NCBI RefSeq assembly: GCF_025770765.1
Contig: NZ_JANZKY010000004.1
Span: 62,001-126,000, forward strand
Length of the DNA: 64,000 nt
Origin: Propionivibrio soli
GTDB taxonomy: Bacteria > Pseudomonadota > Gammaproteobacteria > Burkholderiales > Rhodocyclaceae
Direction of reading: 5' to 3'
Positions 10,126-46,530 of this stretch are shown here, one piece after another. The notes under the pieces were generated by a model, which was given only the letters and a program-made list of their open reading frames with translations, did no database searches and was not told the origin of the DNA. The position numbers were made by a program, and so were the translations under genes. The stretch's first letter is position 1. Every line of letters starts with the position of its first letter.

Positions 10126-10772
10126 TGACGTTCTCGCTGTGGGACATCGTGCGCAATCTGCTGATCGGTGGTGCGCTCACGTTGCTGCTCTCCTTGGTCG
10201 CGTTCGCGCTTGGCGGCGCCACGGGCCTCTTGGTACTCTTTGCCCGCATCGGCAAGTGGCGAGCGCCGCGCGCACTGGCGCAGATGCACATCGAGCTGTT
10301 CCAGGGCACGCCGTTGCTGCTGCAACTGTTCACCCTGTTCTTCGGTTTGTCGCTGTTCGGGCTCGACGTGCCGGCCTGGCTGGCCGCCGGGCTGGGCCTC
10401 ACGTTGTTCACCAGCGCCTTCCTCGCCGAGATCTGGCGCGGCTGCGTCGAGGCCGTGCCGCGGGGCCAGTGGGAAGCGAGCGCCTGCCTGGCGATGACCT
10501 ACTGGGAACAGATGCGCCATGTGATCCTGCCCCAAGCGATGCGCCTCTCGATCGCGCCCACGGTCGGTTTCGCCGTGCAGGTGGTCAAGGGCACGGCCGT
10601 CACCTCGATCATCGGCTTCGCCGAGCTGACCAAGACCGGCTCGATGATCGCCAACGCGACCTTCCAGCCCTTCCTCGTCTATAGCCTGGTCGCCCTCGGT
10701 TACTTCATCCTCTGCTACCCGCTGTCGCGCTACGCGCAAGCGCTCGAAAGGAGCTTCCATGCCGCTCGTTAG
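10122..10772 (+). CDS. Amino-acid-type ABC transporter permease 2
   Basis: Second permease of 216 residues, paralogous to the upstream one. It shows the same signature (IELFQGTPLLLQLFTLFFG) and EAA loop (GQWEASACLAMTYWEQMRHV). I start it at the ATG at 10122, which overlaps the stop of permease 1; a second ATG follows at once at 10125. The frame is open far upstream, but that extension is the shadow of permease 1. The gene overlaps the ATPase gene by 14 bp, so the three are tightly coupled. Confidence 0.94.
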   Translation: MMTFSLWDIVRNLLIGGALTLLLSLVAFALGGATGLLVLFARIGKWRAPRALAQMHIELFQGTPLLLQLFTLFFGLSLFGLDVPAWLAAGLGLTLFTSAFLAEIWRGCVEAVPRGQWEASACLAMTYWEQMRHVILPQAMRLSIAPTVGFAVQVVKGTAVTSIIGFAELTKTGSMIANATFQPFLVYSLVALGYFILCYPLSRYAQALERSFHAAR

Positions 10773-11496
10773 CACCAACCGCCTGCACAAGTTCTTCGGC
10801 ACCAACCACGTTCTGCGAGGCATCAAGCTTGACGTCGAAGAAGGCGAAGTCGTGACCATCGTCGGCCGCAGCGGCTCGGGGAAAAGCACCCTGTTGCGCA
10901 CGCTCAACGGGCTGGAAAGCATCGACGACGGCGTCATCGAAGTCGACGGCGCGACGCTGGAAGTCGACCGCGCCGACGCCTCGGCCTTGCGTAATCTGCG
11001 CCAGAAGGTCGGCATGGTCTTTCAGCAATTCAACCTCTTTCCGCACCTCTCAGCCGGGCAAAACGTGATGCTCGCACCGCAGGTGGTCAAGCGAACGCCA
11101 AAGAAGGAGGCGGAAGAAATTGCCCGGCGCATGTTGGAACGCGTGGGGCTGGCCGAGAAGTTCGACGCCTTTCCCGACCAGCTCTCCGGCGGTCAGCAAC
11201 AGCGCGTTGCTATTGCGCGCGCGCTCGCCATGTCGCCGAGGGTGCTACTGTGCGACGAAATCACCTCGGCGCTCGACCCGGAACTCGTCAACGAAGTGCT
11301 CGGCGTTGTGCGCCAGCTTGCCGGCGAGGGCATGACGCTGATCATGGTCACGCACGAGATGCGCTTCGCGCGCGAGGTGAGCGACAAGCTGGTGTTCATG
11401 CACGAAGGCAAGATCCACGAGTCCGGCCATCCCCAGGCGATGTTCGCCAAGCCGGCGACGGCGGAATTCGCCAGTTTTATCGGGTCGCTGAATTAA
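10759..11496 (+). CDS. Amino-acid-type ABC transporter ATP-binding protein
   Basis: ATPase of 245 residues (GlnQ/HisP type). Walker A GRSGSGKST (about 36-44), Q-loop VFQQFNLFPHLS, signature LSGGQQQR, Walker B VLLCDEITSALDPE and the H-loop MVTHEM are all intact. Note ITSALD where EPTSALD is usual: the residue after the catalytic Glu is Ile instead of Pro, a conservative variation seen in some members. It completes the importer and is followed 21 bp later by alc, so transporter and ureide enzymes probably share a transcript. Confidence 0.95.
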   Translation: MPLVSTNRLHKFFGTNHVLRGIKLDVEEGEVVTIVGRSGSGKSTLLRTLNGLESIDDGVIEVDGATLEVDRADASALRNLRQKVGMVFQQFNLFPHLSAGQNVMLAPQVVKRTPKKEAEEIARRMLERVGLAEKFDAFPDQLSGGQQQRVAIARALAMSPRVLLCDEITSALDPELVNEVLGVVRQLAGEGMTLIMVTHEMRFAREVSDKLVFMHEGKIHESGHPQAMFAKPATAEFASFIGSLN

Positions 11497-18307: not shown

Positions 18308-18908
18308 CTTGAATACGTCGTCTTTCCTAGCGGCGTCAATCCGTAGCGAGGGAGTTATGAGGACTATTTTCCACTTCGGCCGGCTGAAGTGGAAAGTCAG
18401 CGAGTCGGTCCATATCGGCAATGCCGTTTAAGCCGCTGCACCAGTACGCTGATGTGATCGGATTGTAAGGGCGAAACCTCCGGAGTTGCCCGCCGAGCAG
18501 GAAATGCCAATATTCTGGCACTTTAGTCCATACGACGATAACGACCAGCAGCAAACTCCCGGGCATAGTTGTCTTGAAACAACACGACGGCGGCACGACA
18601 GGCATAAATCACCGCCGAAGCAGTTGCCAAATGTCCATGCTCGCCGTTTAATCAATCTCCATAAACCGCGCGGCACGGCTTCCACATCTGGAGCCAGCAA
18701 CCGCGAAGCGGACAGAACGAAAACAACACGCGCAAAAATGGGGTAACGCTTGACGCTTTTGGCGCCGCTTTTAGGCGCCACTAAATCGGTTTAAGCGTTT
18801 AAAAATAATGGGATCGCCAAGTTGGAGTTCTCCGTTTATACAGTGGAATGACGGAAAGTTCTCCGTTATGACGCAAAACTTTCCCTTTTTTAGGACGGCC
18901 ACTTCGCG
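18308..18908. other. Gene-poor gap at the border of the cassette array, with an attC-like fold
   Basis: Six hundred bases with no convincing gene. A leftward frame at 18336-18605 has one hydrophobic stretch (SLLLVVIVVW) but no family resemblance. At 18742-18803 there is an attC-like fold: GGGTAACGCTTGA on the left, inner hairpin TGGCGCC/GGCGCCA, and TTTAAGCGTTTAAA on the right (AACGCTT pairs with AAGCGTT). Its right core GTTTAAA departs from the GTTRRRY consensus, so it is a weak candidate or a decayed site. No integrase gene or remnant was recognised. Confidence 0.4.
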
Positions 18909-18915
18909 TTGGGCG
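18909..18915 (+). other. Left cassette junction (integron core site GTTGGGC)
   Basis: GTTGGGC fits the integron crossover consensus GTTRRRY exactly. Its six bases TTGGGC are the reverse complement of the R'' core (GCCCAAC) at the other end of the same cassette (19666-19672), as expected when a circular cassette has been inserted. A matching R'' to its left was not found, so it may be the remains of an attI or of a decayed attC. Confidence 0.6.
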
Positions 18916-19020
18916 CCATAGCCTCAAGCCTCTGCAAGAGTTGCCGTCAAACTCGAATCTAGCGAATCGCTCTTGCAAACGTTCTCAACTTCACTCAACG
19001 AATTTCATAGGGAGCAAGTT

Positions 19021-19641
19021 GTGTTGTCTAGATTGCCGTATTTCTTTCTCGTCTTCTCGCTTGTTGGATGTGCAAGCTCGCCACTCCAACGTTCTAGCGT
19101 CGAAAGACTGCAAAGTGTCGAGATCGTCACGGTTTCAACGCCAGCGATAGAAGCGCCGAGTTTAATGCAGGCTGGAGTAAGTAGCGGTCAATTGGGGTTA
19201 ATTCCCGCTCTAATCGTTGAGGATCAGCAAAAATTCACTTATTCACCGCCGCTGATTCAAGATCTTGGCGCGTTGCTGACCGACCGACTGCAGCAGAGCT
19301 TAGCGCAGATATGTTGGTGGCCGAAAATGACGGTACATCAAGACTCTGTCCCCGCAAACTACGTTTATCCTTCGGGCCACTGGCTCCGCGTAGCAATTGG
19401 GAAATATCAGATTGCGCCGTCTCCATTTAGAACGGTCTTTGCGGTGGCAAGAGTTTCTCTGGAGCGGCCCTATATGCAAGGCGAACCACTTTGGATAAAG
19501 CAAATAGCATTTAGCGGCATAGTTCATGGGGGAGAAAGGATCGATGTGGACAGACTTCCAGACGACCCGTCGCTGCTACGTCGAGAGATTGAACGTGCAG
19601 CTGACTGGTTGGCAAGAGAAATAGTTGCCGACATTCAATAG
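19021..19641 (+). CDS. Cassette 1: hypothetical lipoprotein
   Basis: Lipoprotein of 206 residues. I choose the GTG at 19021 because AGGGAGC lies just before it and it gives a compact signal peptide (LSRLPYFFLVFSLVGC) ending in a lipobox Cys; an in-frame start at 18973 would add 16 residues without signal character. The mature part is probably secreted to the periplasm or outer membrane; no known domain was recognised. It fills the first cassette (about 18910-19726) and reads in the cassette orientation. Base composition is lower in GC than the flanking core genes. Function unknown. Confidence 0.75.
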   Translation: MLSRLPYFFLVFSLVGCASSPLQRSSVERLQSVEIVTVSTPAIEAPSLMQAGVSSGQLGLIPALIVEDQQKFTYSPPLIQDLGALLTDRLQQSLAQICWWPKMTVHQDSVPANYVYPSGHWLRVAIGKYQIAPSPFRTVFAVARVSLERPYMQGEPLWIKQIAFSGIVHGGERIDVDRLPDDPSLLRREIERAADWLAREIVADIQ

Positions 19642-19665
19642 CTATGCAGAAAATCATAGAGCGCC

Positions 19666-19732
19666 GCCCAACCCATCATTCCACCGGACCCGCGCGAGAA
19701 GCCGCGCGGGCCGGTGAATTCAGACGTTATGC
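19666..19732 (+). other. attC site 1
   Basis: Integron recombination site of 67 bp. R'' is GCCCAAC (19666-19672) and R' is GTTATGC (19726-19732). Between them ACCGG-A-CCCGCGCG pairs with CGCGCGGG-CCGGT, leaving a single unpaired A on the left arm, the extrahelical base expected of attC hairpins. The left arm AACCCATCATTCCACCGGAC and right arm GGCCGGTGAATTCAGACG recur in attC site 3. Confidence 0.88.
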
Positions 19733-19750
19733 ATTTACCAAGGAGAAGTC

Positions 19751-20332
19751 ATGAGCATTGGCTTGTTTATTGATGGCGCTTACCTACTCAAAACGTTCCG
19801 AGAGCACATTGACTATGTGAAGCTCCGACAGCACATTGAATCGATACTCGACGATACCATCGACGAAGGCTATTTTTTCAATGCCGATACCGATCCCCCA
19901 AAGGCAGAAAAACTACACAACGCTCTAACTCTGCCACCGCCGCGCGGCCCAGGTTTACGGGTCAAAATCTACTGGCTACAGAAAAAGCAACTTTTCTGGC
20001 CCAAACAGCTTGGCGGCCAGCCAGTCGTTCACCCAGACAATCCCGAAATTCAGTTTGAACAAACAACTCAAAAAGCTGTAGATGTTGGGTTGGTCTATCA
20101 CATGGTTCGCTCGTACCATAAACGGAAATGGACAAAGTTGGTTTTAATAGCCGGTGATGGGGATTTTCACGAACCAGTACAAAATCTTGTCGAGTCTGAG
20201 AACGTCGACCTTTACTTGGTCGGCTCAGTTCGAAACATCTCCGATGAACTTCGGCCTTACGCCCGCAGCATCTTCGAGATAGATCAAGAGCCATTACATT
20301 CTCAGCTTCGGTTATCTCGTCCTAATGCATAA
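19751..20332 (+). CDS. Cassette 2: NYN (PIN-like) domain protein
   Basis: Protein of 193 residues of the NYN/LabA-like superfamily, predicted metal-dependent RNases. The acidic site is visible: Asp8 in IGLFIDGAYL, Asp111 in KAVDVGLVYHM, and Asp136/Asp138 in VLIAGDGDF. AAGGAGAAG precedes the ATG at 19751. Its TAA stop lies inside the R'' core of the next attC (GCATAAC), a compact arrangement typical of gene cassettes. Cellular role is unknown; RNA cleavage in stress or defence is a reasonable inference from the fold. Confidence 0.88.
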   Translation: MSIGLFIDGAYLLKTFREHIDYVKLRQHIESILDDTIDEGYFFNADTDPPKAEKLHNALTLPPPRGPGLRVKIYWLQKKQLFWPKQLGGQPVVHPDNPEIQFEQTTQKAVDVGLVYHMVRSYHKRKWTKLVLIAGDGDFHEPVQNLVESENVDLYLVGSVRNISDELRPYARSIFEIDQEPLHSQLRLSRPNA

Positions 20333-20396
20333 CACTACGCTCCAAGGGACGCTGCGCGATAGAGTCGCGCAGCGTCCCTGCGCTTCGACGTTGGGC
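20327..20396 (+). other. attC site 2
   Basis: Seventy-base attC. R'' GCATAAC (20327-20333) is the exact reverse complement of the core that opens cassette 2 (GTTATGC at 19726). R' is GTTGGGC (20390-20396). The inner arms AGGGACGCTGCGCGA and TCGCGCAGCGTCCCT form a perfect 15 bp stem around a five-base loop. Confidence 0.9.
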
Positions 20397-20442
20397 GTCA
20401 CTGAAATAGGTTGTTCCGCTTCCATGAATGAAAGGAGTCCAG

Positions 20443-21078
20443 ATGTCTAGCTTGCAGGAGAAAGTGAAAGAGATTGCCGAGATCGCAGCGTCTGTTCCGG
20501 AGAATCTTCAAGTTACTTGCTTTGAACTCCTTCTACGGGACTACTTGGCTGCCGCTTCACCCAAAGAGCCACCCCCGCAAAAACAAACGACGGAGGCAGC
20601 AGCCATTGGAGCCGCCACGGAGAGCGGTAGCGAGGAAGCGAGCAGCGGTGCCGAAAGATCGGAACCGGTACAAGCGGATGTCACTCAAGCCGACCTACAT
20701 GTCAAAGCACGTAAGTTCATGGAGAAGTATTCGATCTCGATCAGCGAACTCAACAACTTGTTCTACAAGGAGGGGGCCGCAATCATGCCTCTCTATGAAG
20801 ACCTAAAGACAACTCGAATGTCAGAGGCTCAGATTCGAATTGCACTACTACAAGCCCTTCATCACGGATTAGGTGACGGAGAGTTTATTGCCCAGATCGA
20901 AGATATTCGTACGGAATGTCGTGACCGTAAGGTGCTAGACGGAACCAATTTCGCAGCAAACTTTAAGAACAACAAATCGCTTTTCGATTTCGATACCTAC
21001 AGTAAAGACACCAAGTCGATTCGCCTATCTGAAGAAGGCAGGAAGGAGCTTGCCGACATCATCAAAGAGCTACAGTGA
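20443..21078 (+). CDS. Cassette 3, first gene: hypothetical protein (partner of HEPN-like protein)
   Basis: Protein of 211 residues. I use the ATG at 20443 because AAAGGAG lies before it; the ATG at 20428 overlaps that site. Residues 1-40 are helical, ~43-85 are a low-complexity linker rich in Pro, Gln, Glu, Ser and Ala, and ~90-211 form a charged helical region (FMEKYSISISELNNLFYKEG, then IRLSEEGRKELADIIKEL). No known domain was recognised. Its stop is 4 bp before the next start, so the two are translated together and share one cassette. It could be an antitoxin or sensor for the HEPN-like partner; this is inference from gene order. Confidence 0.75.
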   Translation: MSSLQEKVKEIAEIAASVPENLQVTCFELLLRDYLAAASPKEPPPQKQTTEAAAIGAATESGSEEASSGAERSEPVQADVTQADLHVKARKFMEKYSISISELNNLFYKEGAAIMPLYEDLKTTRMSEAQIRIALLQALHHGLGDGEFIAQIEDIRTECRDRKVLDGTNFAANFKNNKSLFDFDTYSKDTKSIRLSEEGRKELADIIKELQ

Positions 21079-21082
21079 AGCA

Positions 21083-21889
21083 ATGGAGACGAGTCTGAAT
21101 TCGCTCCTTGAGGACCTAAAGAGATTTCGCAAGGTTCTGAAGGCTGAAACCGTTCCTCAAGTTGGGAAGAAGATACTTCGCAATAAGGCCAACGAACTAG
21201 GTTCCGCTTGGCATCGCGACTTCAGCCCAAAGCTGAAAAGTGCCGTTCCAGACGAGGTCTGCGCTCGCTATGACGAGGGGTTTACGCGGCTCATCAAACT
21301 TAGCTCCCCGAATAATCTTCGCTCGAGCTACCTCGACGCCCTCAATGACCTAATTTCAAAGTTCCGCGACGAACTCGTCATCCCAGCGAAGCAGGGACTT
21401 CTTGCCACTGCATCTCCCAGCGCGTTTGATAGTTTTTTCGCCTCGTTAGCGGGCACCGAAGAGAGTGGCTACCTTCAGGAAGCAGTTGCATGTGCTCGGG
21501 CTGCGCATTTTCGTGCCGCAGCGGTGCTTGGTTGGAGTGCCGCAATTGACCGAATTCATCGCAAACTGGAAGGTCTAGGCTTTCAACAATTTAATGTCTC
21601 CTCTGCCCGAATGGCCGGCCAACAGTCGGGCCGATACAAGAAGTTCAATCAGGTTCAAAACGTCAATAGCATTGGCGAAATACGCGAAGTCTTCGACACC
21701 ATTGTTCTATGGGTCATCGAAGGCATGGGGTTGATTGATTCGAATCAGCACACCCGTCTTAGAAGTTGCTTCGATATGCGCTGTCAGAGCGCTCATCCTG
21801 GCGAGGCTCCGATAACATCATTCAATTTGCTGTCCTTCTTCTCTGATCTCGACCAAATTATCTTTAGCAATCCGAAATTCAAGCTTTAG
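21083..21889 (+). CDS. Cassette 3, second gene: HEPN-like hypothetical protein
   Basis: Protein of 268 residues. The C-terminal half looks like a HEPN-type helical domain: a conserved helix AAVLGWSAAIDRIHRKLE (147-163) and, about 70 residues later, RCQSAHP with Arg233 and His238 spaced as the R-x4-6-H motif of HEPN ribonucleases, followed by a final helix. The N-terminal ~110 residues are helical and unassigned. The start is the ATG at 21083. HEPN proteins are common in toxin-antitoxin, abortive-infection and other defence modules. The domain call rests on the motif and helical pattern only and needs a profile search. Confidence 0.7.
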   Translation: METSLNSLLEDLKRFRKVLKAETVPQVGKKILRNKANELGSAWHRDFSPKLKSAVPDEVCARYDEGFTRLIKLSSPNNLRSSYLDALNDLISKFRDELVIPAKQGLLATASPSAFDSFFASLAGTEESGYLQEAVACARAAHFRAAAVLGWSAAIDRIHRKLEGLGFQQFNVSSARMAGQQSGRYKKFNQVQNVNSIGEIREVFDTIVLWVIEGMGLIDSNQHTRLRSCFDMRCQSAHPGEAPITSFNLLSFFSDLDQIIFSNPKFKL

Positions 21890-21895
21890 CGTGAC

Positions 21896-21964
21896 GCACA
21901 ACCCATCATTCCACCGGACCTGTCGCGGCAAGCCGCGCCAGGCCGGTGAATTCAGACGTTGCCG
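21896..21964 (+). other. attC site 3
   Basis: Sixty-nine-base attC closing cassette 3. R'' GCACAAC (21896-21902) matches the reverse complement of the cassette start (GTTGGGC at 20390) except at one base. R' is GTTGCCG (21958-21964). Arms ACCGG-A-CCTG and CAGG-CCGGT pair with the same unpaired A as in attC 1, and an inner GCGG/CCGC stem closes the loop. Outer arms are identical to attC 1. Confidence 0.87.
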
Positions 21965-21974
21965 GTAGTCAAAC

Positions 21975-22751
21975 ATGCGCTTTTTCAAATCAATTTTTAA
22001 TGCCCTCAGTCTCCTCGTACTGCTTGCTGGCTGTGATCAGCAAGCAATGCTCGAAAAGTTCATCCCGAAAGAGGAGTCGGCGATCGCGAAACAAGTTCTC
22101 TCTCAACTCGCCACGAAGAACTATGCCGACGTAGAGAAACAACTAGACCCCAGCATCAGGAATGCGTCTGCTCGAGCCGCGCTTGAACAAATGGCTGCCC
22201 TGTTTCCACCTGCCGAGCCGAAGAGCGTTACCACGGTCGGCGCGAACACACATACCGCCAGTGACGTCACCACCTATAACTTGACGTTTGAACACGAGTT
22301 TTCAAACTTATGGTTACTCACCAATGTTGTTCTTCAGAGACGTGACGCTCAGGTAACGATTCTCGGATTGCACGTAAAGCCAATGAAGCAGTCACTCAAA
22401 GAATTGAATCGGTTTACTTTTGAAGGAAAGGGCATACGTCACTACCTTGTTTTCGCCCTTGCAATCACTGTCCCTCTCTTTATCGTTTTTTCCCTTATTC
22501 TTTGCTTCAAAACGCCCGTCGAAAATCGTAAATGGCTATGGTTGCTTTTCATTGCGCTTGGGTTCGTTCAGCTTTCACTCAATTGGACGGATGGGAGCTA
22601 CGGTGTTCAACTAATAAGCTTTGTTCTGCTTGGGGCTGGAATTTTCAGTGCCGGGCCATATGCACCGACGGTCATTAGCATTGCTTTTCCACTCGGCGCT
22701 GTCATTTTCCTATTCAAGCGTCGTTCATTGATGGTAGGGAACACCGCGTAA
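21975..22751 (+). CDS. Cassette 4: membrane-anchored lipoprotein of unknown function
   Basis: Protein of 258 residues with a signal peptide and lipobox LLAGC (Cys20), a soluble region of about 130 residues, then three to four transmembrane helices from about residue 155 to the end (HYLVFALAITVPLFIVFSLI; WLWLLFIALGFVQLSL; further hydrophobic runs) and a basic tail FKRRS. The soluble region resembles DUF3887/DUF4019-like accumulations of helices around QLATKNYADVEKQLDP, but this is weak. It begins 17 bp after attC 3 in cassette orientation. Function unknown. Confidence 0.78.
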   Translation: MRFFKSIFNALSLLVLLAGCDQQAMLEKFIPKEESAIAKQVLSQLATKNYADVEKQLDPSIRNASARAALEQMAALFPPAEPKSVTTVGANTHTASDVTTYNLTFEHEFSNLWLLTNVVLQRRDAQVTILGLHVKPMKQSLKELNRFTFEGKGIRHYLVFALAITVPLFIVFSLILCFKTPVENRKWLWLLFIALGFVQLSLNWTDGSYGVQLISFVLLGAGIFSAGPYAPTVISIAFPLGAVIFLFKRRSLMVGNTA

Positions 22752-22801
22752 TCGACCATTCCAGCGGATCAACCACATCGACTGCAGAACTCAGCCTTTG
22801 G
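22746..22801 (+). other. Degenerate attC-like site
   Basis: The sequence from the stop codon of the cassette 4 gene (AATCGACCATTCCAGCGGAT) aligns with the left arm of attC 1 and 3 at about 16 of 21 positions, and CAGAACTCAGCCTTT aligns with their right arm at about two thirds of positions. The AAC of R'' has become AAT and the crossover GTT has become TTT, so it is probably inactive. It may mark the right end of the recognisable array. Confidence 0.5.
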
Positions 22802-22870
22802 AAGCCAATTTGCCGTGAGCGGGCGTAAACCGGCTCAAATTTCCAATAACATAATCGAGGGTATAGTTTA

Positions 22871-23335
22871 ATGAAAATCGTTTCCGTATTTGCTCTTACA
22901 GCTGCTCTCCTAATCTCGGGATGTGCATCCGTAGATATGGCCACAAAAGCAGAATCAGCAAAAGCGAAAGAGTTCAACCCACCTAGCGACGGCAAAGCGG
23001 GGGTTTATGTATATCGAGACAGCTTCGTCGGGAAAGCGCTCAAGAAAGACGTTTGGGTTGACGGAGTGTGCATCGGTGAGACTGCACCAGATGTATTTTT
23101 CTATACAGAGGTTGCGGGAGGTAAAAACCACAAACTCGATACCGAATCTGAGTTTTCGCCAAATACCCTAGAGCTGATGTTTGAAACAGGGAAGAACTAT
23201 TTCATTCGGCAGTTCATTAAGTTGGGCGTCTTTGTTGGTGGCGCGGGACTAGAACAGGTCCCTGAAGACGAAGGAAAAGTTGCTGTCGCCAAGCTCGAAA
23301 TGGCAAAACCAGGTAGTTGCAGTGGGGCTCGGTAA
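22871..23335 (+). CDS. DUF2846-type lipoprotein
   Basis: Lipoprotein of 154 residues with lipobox LISGC (Cys18). The body (GKAGVYVYRDSFVG, then VWVDGVCIGETAP, then LELMFETGKNYFIRQFIKLG) follows the DUF2846 pattern of a small beta-rich periplasmic domain. It starts at the ATG at 22871 after a weak ribosome binding site (GAGGGTAT). It lies beyond the decayed attC, reads in the same direction as the cassettes and is followed by a hairpin terminator. It could be a former cassette whose attC sites have decayed. Function unknown. Confidence 0.82.
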   Translation: MKIVSVFALTAALLISGCASVDMATKAESAKAKEFNPPSDGKAGVYVYRDSFVGKALKKDVWVDGVCIGETAPDVFFYTEVAGGKNHKLDTESEFSPNTLELMFETGKNYFIRQFIKLGVFVGGAGLEQVPEDEGKVAVAKLEMAKPGSCSGAR

Positions 23336-23390
23336 CCGCGAGTTCTGCCAAACCTCTGCCTCTGCCAATCCTCTGCCAATCAAGCGGTCG

Positions 23391-23421
23391 AAACGCGCAG
23401 CCTAAAAAAGCTGCGCTTTTT
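23391..23421 (+). terminator. Rho-independent terminator
   Basis: GCGCAGC (23395-23401) pairs with GCTGCGC (23410-23416) around an A-rich loop, followed by TTTTT. It lies about 60 bp after the DUF2846 lipoprotein stop. Just upstream there is a short tandem run of CTCTGCCAA-type units (23355-23380). Confidence 0.85.
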
Positions 23422-23522
23422 GACCCTTAACACCCCTTCCTCTACCAAGCCGCTCACATGGTCCCTGTTGAAACCATATCCAGACCGGGCTCTCGTTATC
23501 TGAGTTTAAAACTTGTACCTGA

Positions 23523-24044
23523 ATGCCATTTTCGAATCAAACCGAGCCAAAGGGGTTCAAACAGATGACAGATATGCTCGTCAAGCTATACGACTTCACA
23601 AACACGAGCAAAAAGGAAGAAGTCGAAAGGAATGGAGTCTTCGTCAAACGCGCGATGGCGCTTGATCGGCACCTGATCACCGATTTCGTTCATGACCAAT
23701 TCAGCCGTACCAACGCTGGATGGGTTGGAGAGTGCGAGCTTGCCCTATCGCAACAACCGACCACTTGCTATATCGCCGTTCATGACAAAAAGATCGTCGG
23801 CTTCTGCTGCTGGGATGGCACGGCCAAAGGGATGCTTGGCCCTTTGGGGGTAAGTGAAAAATGGCGAGGCCGGGGTATTGCGCGAGAGCTTGTTCTATCC
23901 TGCTTGCTGTCGATGCGAGAGGCCGGGTATGCCTATGCGGTGATCGGCTGGGTGAGCTCCGAGGAGTTTTACTCAAAGCTATGCGGGGCAATCGCAATTC
24001 CAGATTCGCATCCAGGCGTCTATTCCAGGCTTTCAAGCATTTGA
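23523..24044 (+). CDS. GNAT family N-acetyltransferase
   Basis: Protein of 173 residues (or 159 from the in-frame ATG at 23565; neither start has a strong ribosome binding site). The GNAT core is present: CYIAVHDKKIVGFCCWD strand pair, LGPLGVSEKWRGRGIARELV with the acetyl-CoA loop, and a final EEFYSKLCGAIAIPDS segment. The substrate is unknown. It lies in the lower-GC accessory region after the terminator and before a 285 bp gap (24045-24329) in which I see no gene. Confidence 0.87.
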   Translation: MPFSNQTEPKGFKQMTDMLVKLYDFTNTSKKEEVERNGVFVKRAMALDRHLITDFVHDQFSRTNAGWVGECELALSQQPTTCYIAVHDKKIVGFCCWDGTAKGMLGPLGVSEKWRGRGIARELVLSCLLSMREAGYAYAVIGWVSSEEFYSKLCGAIAIPDSHPGVYSRLSSI

Positions 24045-24329
24045 CCTGATTGGTCACCCCGCTTTTCAGCGAAAGGTAAGAAGTAACTCTTCCCTCTTTT
24101 TGCGCCGAGTTCTTCATCGGGATTCTTAGCAACAGTCGATCACATCTGCGCGTTCCAACTTCCTGAGCAAGCGGAAGATCGATTCGCCATACGAACGTCC
24201 TGGAACAGCAATTCCGTGTCCATCTATGCCGTTGGCTTGCGCCATTTACTCATTCACGGCAGTATGACGACCGCAATTTGATCGTGGTTACGTTAGTGAA
24301 CAACCCGTCGAGTGTCGAAAAGGAATCAA

Positions 24330-24788
24330 ATGCCAGACTGTACGTTTGAACTGAACGGTAAGCCAATGAGCGCTCTGCAGTGCGGTGCGTCGTCATTTCC
24401 AGCGTTTTCAGGGCTCGGTGGGCAAGCCAACCGGCGCGAATACGCGTGCCATGCGAGCGCAGGCCCCATCCCTCCGGGAACCTACTACATCGTTGACCGG
24501 CAATCCGGCGGGCTTCTTGGCCCTCTTCGCGATATGTTCAACGACCGCAGAGAGTGGTTCGCGCTCTATGCAATCGACGACAAGATCGACGACACCACGT
24601 ACTGCAACAAGATCAAGCGGGGCAGTTTCCGGTTGCACCCCAAAGGCCCACTCGGTATCAGCGAAGGTTGTATAACGATCGAGTCACAGAGTGATTTTCA
24701 ACGCTTGCGGGCTCTCTTGAAGGGTTCTGCTCAAATTGCCATCCCTGGCACGACTTTGAAGGCTTACGGCAAGGTTCTCGTTAAATGA
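24330..24788 (+). CDS. DUF2778 (Tlde1-type) L,D-transpeptidase-like toxin
   Basis: Protein of 152 residues of the DUF2778 family, whose studied members (Tlde1) are type VI secretion effectors that attack peptidoglycan stems in the target periplasm. The catalytic motif HPKGPLGISEGC (His103, Ser111, Cys114) fits the HxxG...SxGC pattern of L,D-transpeptidases. The N-terminal LNGKPMSAL and GIPPGTYYI-like PIPPGTYYIVDRQSGG segments are also family-typical. I start it at the ATG at 24330 behind AAAAGGA rather than the GTG at 24312. There is no signal peptide, consistent with delivery by a secretion system. It overlaps the next gene as ATGA. Confidence 0.88.
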   Translation: MPDCTFELNGKPMSALQCGASSFPAFSGLGGQANRREYACHASAGPIPPGTYYIVDRQSGGLLGPLRDMFNDRREWFALYAIDDKIDDTTYCNKIKRGSFRLHPKGPLGISEGCITIESQSDFQRLRALLKGSAQIAIPGTTLKAYGKVLVK

Positions 24789-44827: not shown

Positions 44828-46530
44828 GCACAAAGATTTCGCGGCAAGCCTACGCCGAAATGTTCGGCCCGACCGTCGGTGATCGCCTACGTCTGGCCGA
44901 CACCGACCTGTTTGTCGAAGTCGAGAAGGACTACACCCTCTACGGCGAGGAAGTGAAGTTCGGCGGCGGCAAGGTCATCCGCGACGGCATGGGCCAAAGC
45001 CAGCGCATGGCGAAGGACACCGTCGATACCGTCATCACCAACGCGCTGATTATCGACGCCGTCACCGGCATCGTGAAAGCTGATATCGGCCTCAAGGACG
45101 GGCGCATCGCCGGTATCGGTAAGGCGGGCAACCCCGACATCCAGCCGGGCATCACCATCGTCATCGGGCCTGGTACCGAAATCATCGCCGGCGAAGGCAT
45201 GATCGTCACCGCCGGCGGCATCGACAGCCACATCCACTTCATCTGCCCGCAACAGATCGAGGAAGCCTTGATGTCGGGGGTGACCACCATGCTCGGCGGG
45301 GGCACGGGCCCGGCCACCGGCACCTTCGCCACTACCTGCACACCGGGGCCGTGGCATATCCACTCGATGCTCTCGGCAGCCGAAGCTTTCCCGATGAATC
45401 TCGGCTTTCTCGGCAAAGGCAACGCCAGCCTGCCGGAAGCGCTGCGCGAGCAGATCGCCGCCGGGGCGATGGGCCTCAAGCTGCATGAGGATTGGGGGAC
45501 GACGCCGGCGGCCATCGACTGCTGCCTATCCGTGGCCGACGAGATGGACGTGCAGGTCGCGATCCACACCGACACGCTCAATGAGTCGGGTTTCGTCGAA
45601 GCGACCATAGACGCCTTCAAGGGCCGCACCATCCACACCTTCCACACCGAAGGCGCCGGTGGCGGCCATGCGCCGGACATCATCCGCGCCGCGGGTCTGC
45701 CCAACGTCCTGCCCAGCTCGACCAACCCGACCATGCCGTACACGGTGAACACCATCGACGAGCACCTCGACATGCTGATGGTCTGCCACCACCTCGACCC
45801 GGCCATCGCCGAAGACATCGCCTTCGCCGAATCGCGCATCCGCCGCGAAACGATCGCTGCCGAAGACATCCTGCACGACCTCGGCGCCTTCTCGATGATG
45901 AGCTCGGACTCGCAAGCCATGGGTCGCGTCGGCGAGGTGATCATCCGTACCTGGCAGGCGGCGCACAAGACGAAGGTGCAGCGCGGCACGCTGGCCGGCG
46001 ACAACGTGCGCAACGACAACCTGCGCGTCAAGCGCTACATCGCCAAGTACACGATCAACCCGGCGCTCACGCACGGCATCGCGCATACCGTCGGCTCGGT
46101 CGAAGTCGGCAAGCTCGCCGACCTGGTGCTCTGGCGCCCGGCTTTCTTCGGCGTCAAGCCTTCGCTCATCCTCAAGAGCGGCATGATCGCCGCCGCCGCG
46201 ATGGGCGACCCCAACGCCTCGATCCCGACGCCGCAACCGGTGCATTACCGGCCGATGTTCGGCAGCTTTGGCAAGGCGCTGAAGACCTCGGTCACCTTCG
46301 TCTCGCAAGCGGCGCTGGAGAATCCGGCGGTTGCCGCATTGGGGCTGGAGAAGCCGCTGATCGCCGTCTCGGGCACGCGCAAGCTGAAGAAGGCCGACAT
46401 GGTGTGGAACGGCGCCACGCCGAAGATCGACGTCGATCCCGAAACCTACGTCGTGCGCGCCGACGGCGAATTGCTGGTCTGCGAACCGGCTGCGTCGTTG
46501 CCGATGACCCAACGCTACTTTCTGTTCTGA
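44824..46530 (+). CDS. ureC: Urease subunit alpha (catalytic)
   Basis: Catalytic subunit of 568 residues. All nickel-site residues are present: His136 and His138 (GGIDSHIHF), the carbamylated Lys219 ([10 protein letters not shown]), His248 ([10 protein letters not shown]), His274 ([12 protein letters not shown]) and Asp362 ([10 protein letters not shown]). The mobile flap Cys321-His322-His323 (VCHHLDP) is intact, so the enzyme should be active. It overlaps ureB and is followed 2 bp later by ureE. Confidence 0.98.

Follow-up and report, generated by a model that had tools for sequence, protein, structure and literature searches.

A cassette array headed by an attI site in Propionivibrio soli, probably a degraded chromosomal integron

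The genome of Propionivibrio soli (RefSeq GCF_025770765.1; 4.76 Mb in 36 contigs) carries on contig C31 (NZ_JANZKY010000004.1) an array of integron gene cassettes with no integron-integrase gene (intI) beside it. The stretch analyzed here, referred to as the window, is 64,000 nucleotides long (bases 62001-126000 of that contig; positions without a contig or locus name are those of the window). It contains an integron attachment site (attI), four cassettes with three well-formed attC recombination sites and one decayed site, and, to the left of attI, what reads as an eroded integrase promoter. A first-pass annotation had classed the array as a cluster of attC sites lacking an integron integrase (CALIN) starting at 18909. 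The structure begins further left, with attI at 18845-18914, the promoter remnant from 18769, and a probable remnant of intI itself from 18617; the attI site was missed in that annotation, and with it the array, whose origin was otherwise unknown, can most likely be read as a degraded integron.

The three attC sites recognized earlier (19666-19732, 20327-20396, and 21896-21964, all on the plus strand) were confirmed; each has R'' and R' cores, pairing L boxes, and a bottom strand that folds into a DNA hairpin. They score 65.4 bits (E 3.4e-15), 43.2 bits (E 3.7e-9), and 56.9 bits (E 6.9e-13) with a covariance model, and the best remaining match in the window has 12.6 bits (E 0.79). The model was trained on 22 sites from contigs C3, C13, C17, C19, and C33 of the same genome and none from the window, and several of the training sites flank intact intI genes; resemblance to the sites in the window played a part in their selection, so the covariance test is not fully independent, a point that counts against it. 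The fold test is independent of the choice of training set: fold z scores are -4.08, -5.90, and -3.33 for sites 1 to 3, with 0, 0, and 2 of 200 shuffles folding equally well. Compensatory changes are found in the L boxes of the model (pair 14-85 is AU in 11 and GC in 10; pair 15-84 is GC in 7, CG in 7, UA in 4, and AU in 3). As first described, sites 1 and 3 share identical outer arms; in the centre they differ. The arms of the window sites recur on C3, C13, C17, and C19 (seven matches with at most three mismatches; none for a reversed control). A search of the window against Rfam gave no attC match. Short plasmid matches (86-89%) to the arms near 19670-19727 and 21893-21961, each covering 1-3% of the query at or within the attC sites, occur in three records, all from sludge (Shewanella, Cupriavidus, and Ideonella), and point to circulation of this attC type on plasmids.

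All four cassettes contain open reading frames (ORFs) in the plus direction. Cassette 1 (18909-19727) holds an ORF from 19021 (a GTG start) to 19641, encoding 206 amino acids with a lipoprotein-like start as judged by eye and no Pfam match. The ORF of cassette 2 (19727-20390), at 19751-20332, encodes a predicted NYN (nuclease-type) domain (Pfam NYN, 54.0 bits, E 3.5e-14); a PADLOC search for defence genes gave only weak matches, the best being HEC-09 on this NYN protein (E 0.00029). Cassette 3 (20391-21958) has two ORFs (20443-21078 and 21083-21889) of no clear family; among 199 genomes of the bacterial family the second protein matches only its own, and it has no match in any plasmid record. 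Cassette 4 (21959-22801) contains an ORF of 258 amino acids (21975-22751) with no family match above cut-off. The proposed complementarity between the start of each cassette and its own R'' is perfect for cassette 1 (TTGGGC/GCCCAAC) and cassette 2 (TTATGC/GCATAAC); in cassette 3 (TTGGGC/GCACAAC) only five of six positions match. The attC site of cassette 4 (22746-22801, plus strand) is decayed, as was first supposed: both outer arms are retained (arm-pair score 110; the highest of 2988 control pieces has 96), and the hairpin is gone, the exact stretch giving no fold (z -0.11, with 89 of 200 shuffles folding equally well) and no match to the attC model even with filters off.

The attI site at the head of the array (18845-18914, plus strand) consists of a palindrome followed by a core that ends in the crossover point G^TTGGGC, and scores 45.6 bits (E 1.9e-12) with a model built from 21 intI-adjacent heads of other loci (the window, C3, and C19 were left out). 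The members are 19 of the 32 loci that passed a shuffle test, L047, which tied with its best shuffle, and the head on C13 of the same genome. In that test 44 intI loci were entered, one was dropped for too short an upstream sequence, and the element upstream of intI beat all 50 of its own shuffles in 32 of 43. The model's only other match in the window, at 8.8 bits, is to this palindrome read on the opposite strand. BLAST aligns 18849-18919 with the stretch that separates intI from the first cassette on both C13 and C19 (attI regions 87-89% identical), as well as with a head on C3. These matches place cassette 1 directly at an attI, and an attI at the start of the array is what a degraded integron should retain.

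The palindrome precedes a core ending in the crossover GTTRGGC, and its arms co-vary, with nine cells changed on both sides (0 of 500 shuffles have as many); such two-sided change involves only three pairs, a count reached by 96 of 500 shuffles. Its form directly before the core is GACGSAA..TTSCGTC (e.g., L023:1891-1960 and window 18845-18914). It is doubled in sites of the Propionivibrio/Sulfuritalea type, and on C3 it extends further outward.

Left of attI, an eroded integrase promoter (PintI) is recognizable at 18769-18795 on the minus strand, as the core of a match to the promoter regions of the C13 and C19 integrase genes. When 18767-18846 was aligned with C13 and C19, none of 1538 control pieces scored as high under any of three scoring schemes; with L034 as reference, 2, 0, and 3 of 1538 did so, and by blastn the match is 28 bp long at 86% (E 0.02). 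These comparisons show a promoter remnant, and it is this promoter that supplies the trace of an integrase gene beside attI. By eye, a sequence resembling a LexA box can be made out in the C13 and C19 promoters.

Colinear with the promoter, 18617-18761 (minus strand) is probably a heavily eroded remnant of the first approximately 50 codons of intI, judging from local alignment to the C13 and C19 genes (2-7 of 1538 controls as high under two 5/-4 schemes). Taken jointly, the promoter and coding remnants score 214 against C19 and 188 against C13. These scores are equalled or exceeded by 1 and 2 of 1062 controls, which are pieces of L173 and L160 and themselves hold intI remnants, as the control set still contained true ones; the best of the other controls reaches 159 (C19 reference) and 170 (C13 reference), the 170 coming once more from L160, and with L160 set aside the top scores are 157 and 168. 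Alignment of intI stubs to full-length intI extended at random and was not used.

The array is thus headed by attI and an eroded intI promoter, so that its own integrase has probably been lost, and a drop of cassettes at a random site is unlikely. Together with the attC sites, the low GC content of the array (0.47-0.50 in bins from 18600 to 24100, against 0.63 in flanking bins, with hand-chosen bin limits), and the graded decay of intI within the genus described below, these features support the view, which we consider probably correct, that the array is a degraded chromosomal integron whose own intI was deleted or eroded; loss at this very place is inferred. At least four cassettes would have entered an intI-PintI-attI platform at this position through attI x attC recombination by IntI. 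Deletion or erosion would then have removed intI, and what remained would be attI, a worn promoter, three attC sites in good condition, and a decayed fourth. The cassettes would now constitute a fixed CALIN, a passive store, any further movement depending on an integrase supplied in trans, most likely the intact C13 IntI.

Several results weigh against this interpretation. Under a 1/-1 scheme 19-61 of 1538 controls score as high as the coding remnant, which is weak when taken alone, and against the third reference, L034, 37-52 of 1538 do so. A laxer remnant test gave no separation of the window from its controls (9, 47, 22, and 90 of 188 as high with four references), although the more stringent tests given above did separate it, and tblastn with intact IntI found nothing left of attI and no match in the window better than E 1.7. 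The left flank of the locus was matched weakly at the DNA level in four other genomes of the genus and at the protein level in three (51-54% identity); these flank searches, in which the matching loci were not read further, found no ortholog of the locus with intI. Finally, no trace of intI is seen at 14 of the 26 attI places found in the genus, and pieces headed by attI may also arise in other ways.

No integrase gene was found in the window by profile or tblastn searches, in agreement with the first-pass annotation, and a search of the whole genome with the TIGR02249 profile gave no integron-integrase match on C31. The label CALIN is thus formally right, with three attC sites where at least two are required and no intI on the contig; the covariance scores are high for all three sites, and no integrase adjoins them. 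It is improbable in the extreme that the locus is a complete integron whose integrase-less appearance is an artefact of assembly. The assembly of arrays is indeed fragile in this genome, in that a stretch of 119-127 bp within cassette arrays is common to C13 (positions 1-127) and the ends of C17 and C19; it follows that the arrays of these contigs meet in the assembly, and those of C13 and C19 may not be seen at their full size. In contrast, the array in the window lies in the interior of C31, with at least 60 kb of contig on each side and a return to a GC content of 0.63 in the flanks, and no intact intI stands directly beside its attI.

The search of the rest of the genome for intI and for attC sites with the same arms, proposed earlier, revealed intact intI genes on C13 (501 bits) and C33 (371.5 bits), and a match on C19 limited to the first 39 model positions. 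The nearest named relatives of the C13 IntI are from Propionivibrio (81-82% identity), followed by Sulfuritalea and other Rhodocyclales; its presumed active-site residues were read by eye in the translation, by comparison with known motifs. The second intI, on C33 (L025:9181-10146), is a different gene: it shares approximately 50% identity with the C13 gene and has an attC array of its own, and the narrow attI model found no attI for it. At least 39 attC sites (E < 0.01) are present: 3 on C13, 11 on C17, 5 on C19, 6 beside the C33 intI and 1 at C33:145k, 3 on C3, 3 in the window, 2 on C34, 4 on C7, and 1 on C23. This count is a lower bound (39 of 42 rows were below the threshold, with scores computed for 150 of the 4461 initial candidates).

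Heads of the window's attI type were found on C13, C19, and C3 in addition to the window. None was found at C7, C23, or C33:145k, where the narrowness of the model makes this weak evidence. The existence of such attC sites without a detected attI, and the fact that CALINs away from intI are common, favor a route by which cassettes are inserted in trans at a secondary (attG) site. For the array in the window this route is very improbable and was rejected, as the boundary of the array is an attI of the type found beside intI, accompanied by a promoter remnant. The intact C13 IntI adjoins attC sites of the same type as those in the window, so this enzyme could act in trans on the array. The earlier proposal that the array is stranded from its integrase therefore gains support from attI and the eroded promoter as regards origin; in function the array may not be stranded.

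Within the genus, integron integrases above cut-off occur in at least 12 of 28 genomes, attC sites (E ≤ 0.001) in 21, and attI heads (E ≤ 0.01) in 10. The 34 rows of attI heads represent 26 places, 8 rows being the opposite strand of the same palindrome. The model covers one attI type only: among the 15 intI matches over cut-off listed for the genus, 4 have an adjoining attI match. Among the matches listed, a full intI lies beside 4 of the 26 attI places (C13 of this genome, G001 C21, G005 C8, and G012 C59), and a remnant of intI or of its promoter at 8 (C19 of this genome, the window, L160, L164, L168, L173, L176, and, weakly, L175). An attC site lies on the correct side within about 3 kb of 17 of the 26; only short loci were searched for G012 C59 and G001 C21. 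The occurrence of full, truncated, and promoter-only intI neighbors fits a decay of whole integrons.

The places without a trace of intI, together with five near-identical heads (four of them beside phage-like genes), leave room for mobile pieces headed by attI. By this route the array in the window would have arrived ready-made without intI, through homologous recombination, transposition, or phage transfer, and nothing would have been lost here. The traceless places include C3 of this genome (where 842 of 1062 controls score just as high) and the five heads, whose left flanks differ. The window itself, in contrast, still has a remnant of the intI promoter on the left of its attI, and a probable coding remnant is colinear with it; we regard ready-made arrival as distinctly unlikely for it, and decay of an integron at this place is preferred.

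The five near-identical attI-like heads (approximately 66 bp, 91-99% identity) are found in G005 (L161:7047-7112, L162:4652-4717, and L163:3727-3792) and G001 (L166:4028-4093 and L167:3509-3574), with attC arrays and no trace of intI. The three loci in G005 have approximately 3 kb of left flank in common (88-95%), with phage tail and endolysin genes; the L167 head adjoins a 980-amino-acid protein of a phage family, and two proteins scanned at L166 had no phage match. Whether these heads are prophage-borne docks for cassettes is a question they raise; searches found no exact attI-head patterns in viral contigs and no head of the prophage type in phage records. At L160 and L168, whose attI-headed attC arrays retain no more than a stub of intI, tyrosine recombinases approximately 33-39% identical to IntI are found within the array or close to it (L160:6431-7225 and 10335-11129 in G005:C12, and L168:6865-7694 in G026:C3).

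To the right of cassette 4, genes for a DUF2846 protein (22871-23335) and a GNAT acetyltransferase (23523-24044), both identified by Pfam on the plus strand, have no detectable attC; their GC content, low like that of the array (0.50 versus 0.63 in the flanks), hints that they may be former cassettes. Immediately right of the array is a gene for a Tlde1-domain protein (24312-24788, 118.2 bits) that also matches phrog_14093 (function unknown). No phage structural family was found among ten proteins scanned in the flanks. Elsewhere in the window, Rfam RF02514 (5' ureB sRNA) matches 44976-45265 on the minus strand (116.2 bits).

It is possible, if on the doubtful side, that dispersed attI-headed arrays in the genus share one or two IntI enzymes acting in trans, and that some prophages carry an attI-like head and array loaded by the host integrase. 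If so, the genome would have many docking stations and few engines, and the array in the window would be a worn member of this network and no dead end. Having several attI-headed arrays but few integrases, such a genome is in any case a natural setting for the question of IntI action in trans on chromosomal arrays. Arguments on the origin of CALINs have mostly rested on counts. For the one array in the window, an attI model points to a likely origin, which is legible since the array has kept attI and a promoter remnant, and one such model per integrase group could make CALIN origin testable array by array.

CALINs have been proposed to be degraded integrons, and attI is poorly described outside class 1 (PMC9024848); the array in the window resembles these CALINs in having at least two attC sites without a nearby integrase, and differs in that its attI and promoter remnant have been identified, whereas the tool described there seeks no attI outside class 1. 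In Xanthomonas, repeated loss or truncation of intI along lineages has left arrays that persist, with CALINs away from the main locus, and insertion at attG sites is mentioned as documented off-target IntI activity (PMC12444791). The loss of intI with arrays remaining is common to both; the host of the window is of the Rhodocyclales type and has several attI-headed arrays and two intact intI genes elsewhere in its genome. Nearly one third of intI genes have been reported to be pseudogenes, some of them arising by duplication within a genome, and more than one intI per genome is common (PMC2426708); the intI of the window, in contrast, has decayed past a readable pseudogene. Cassettes of an attI type have been reported (PMC12901181). 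A CALIN that has an attI of its own but lacks intI, next to a complete integron of matching type, is carried by the Shewanella prophage M16-3 (PMC9892861). The array in the window is likewise an attI-headed CALIN without intI; unlike M16-3, which lies in a prophage, it has flanks without a phage structural family. Degraded integrons and an attI-headed CALIN are therefore already in the published record, as far as these texts go, and the array of P. soli is a known sort of genome fossil in which the traces of origin are clear.

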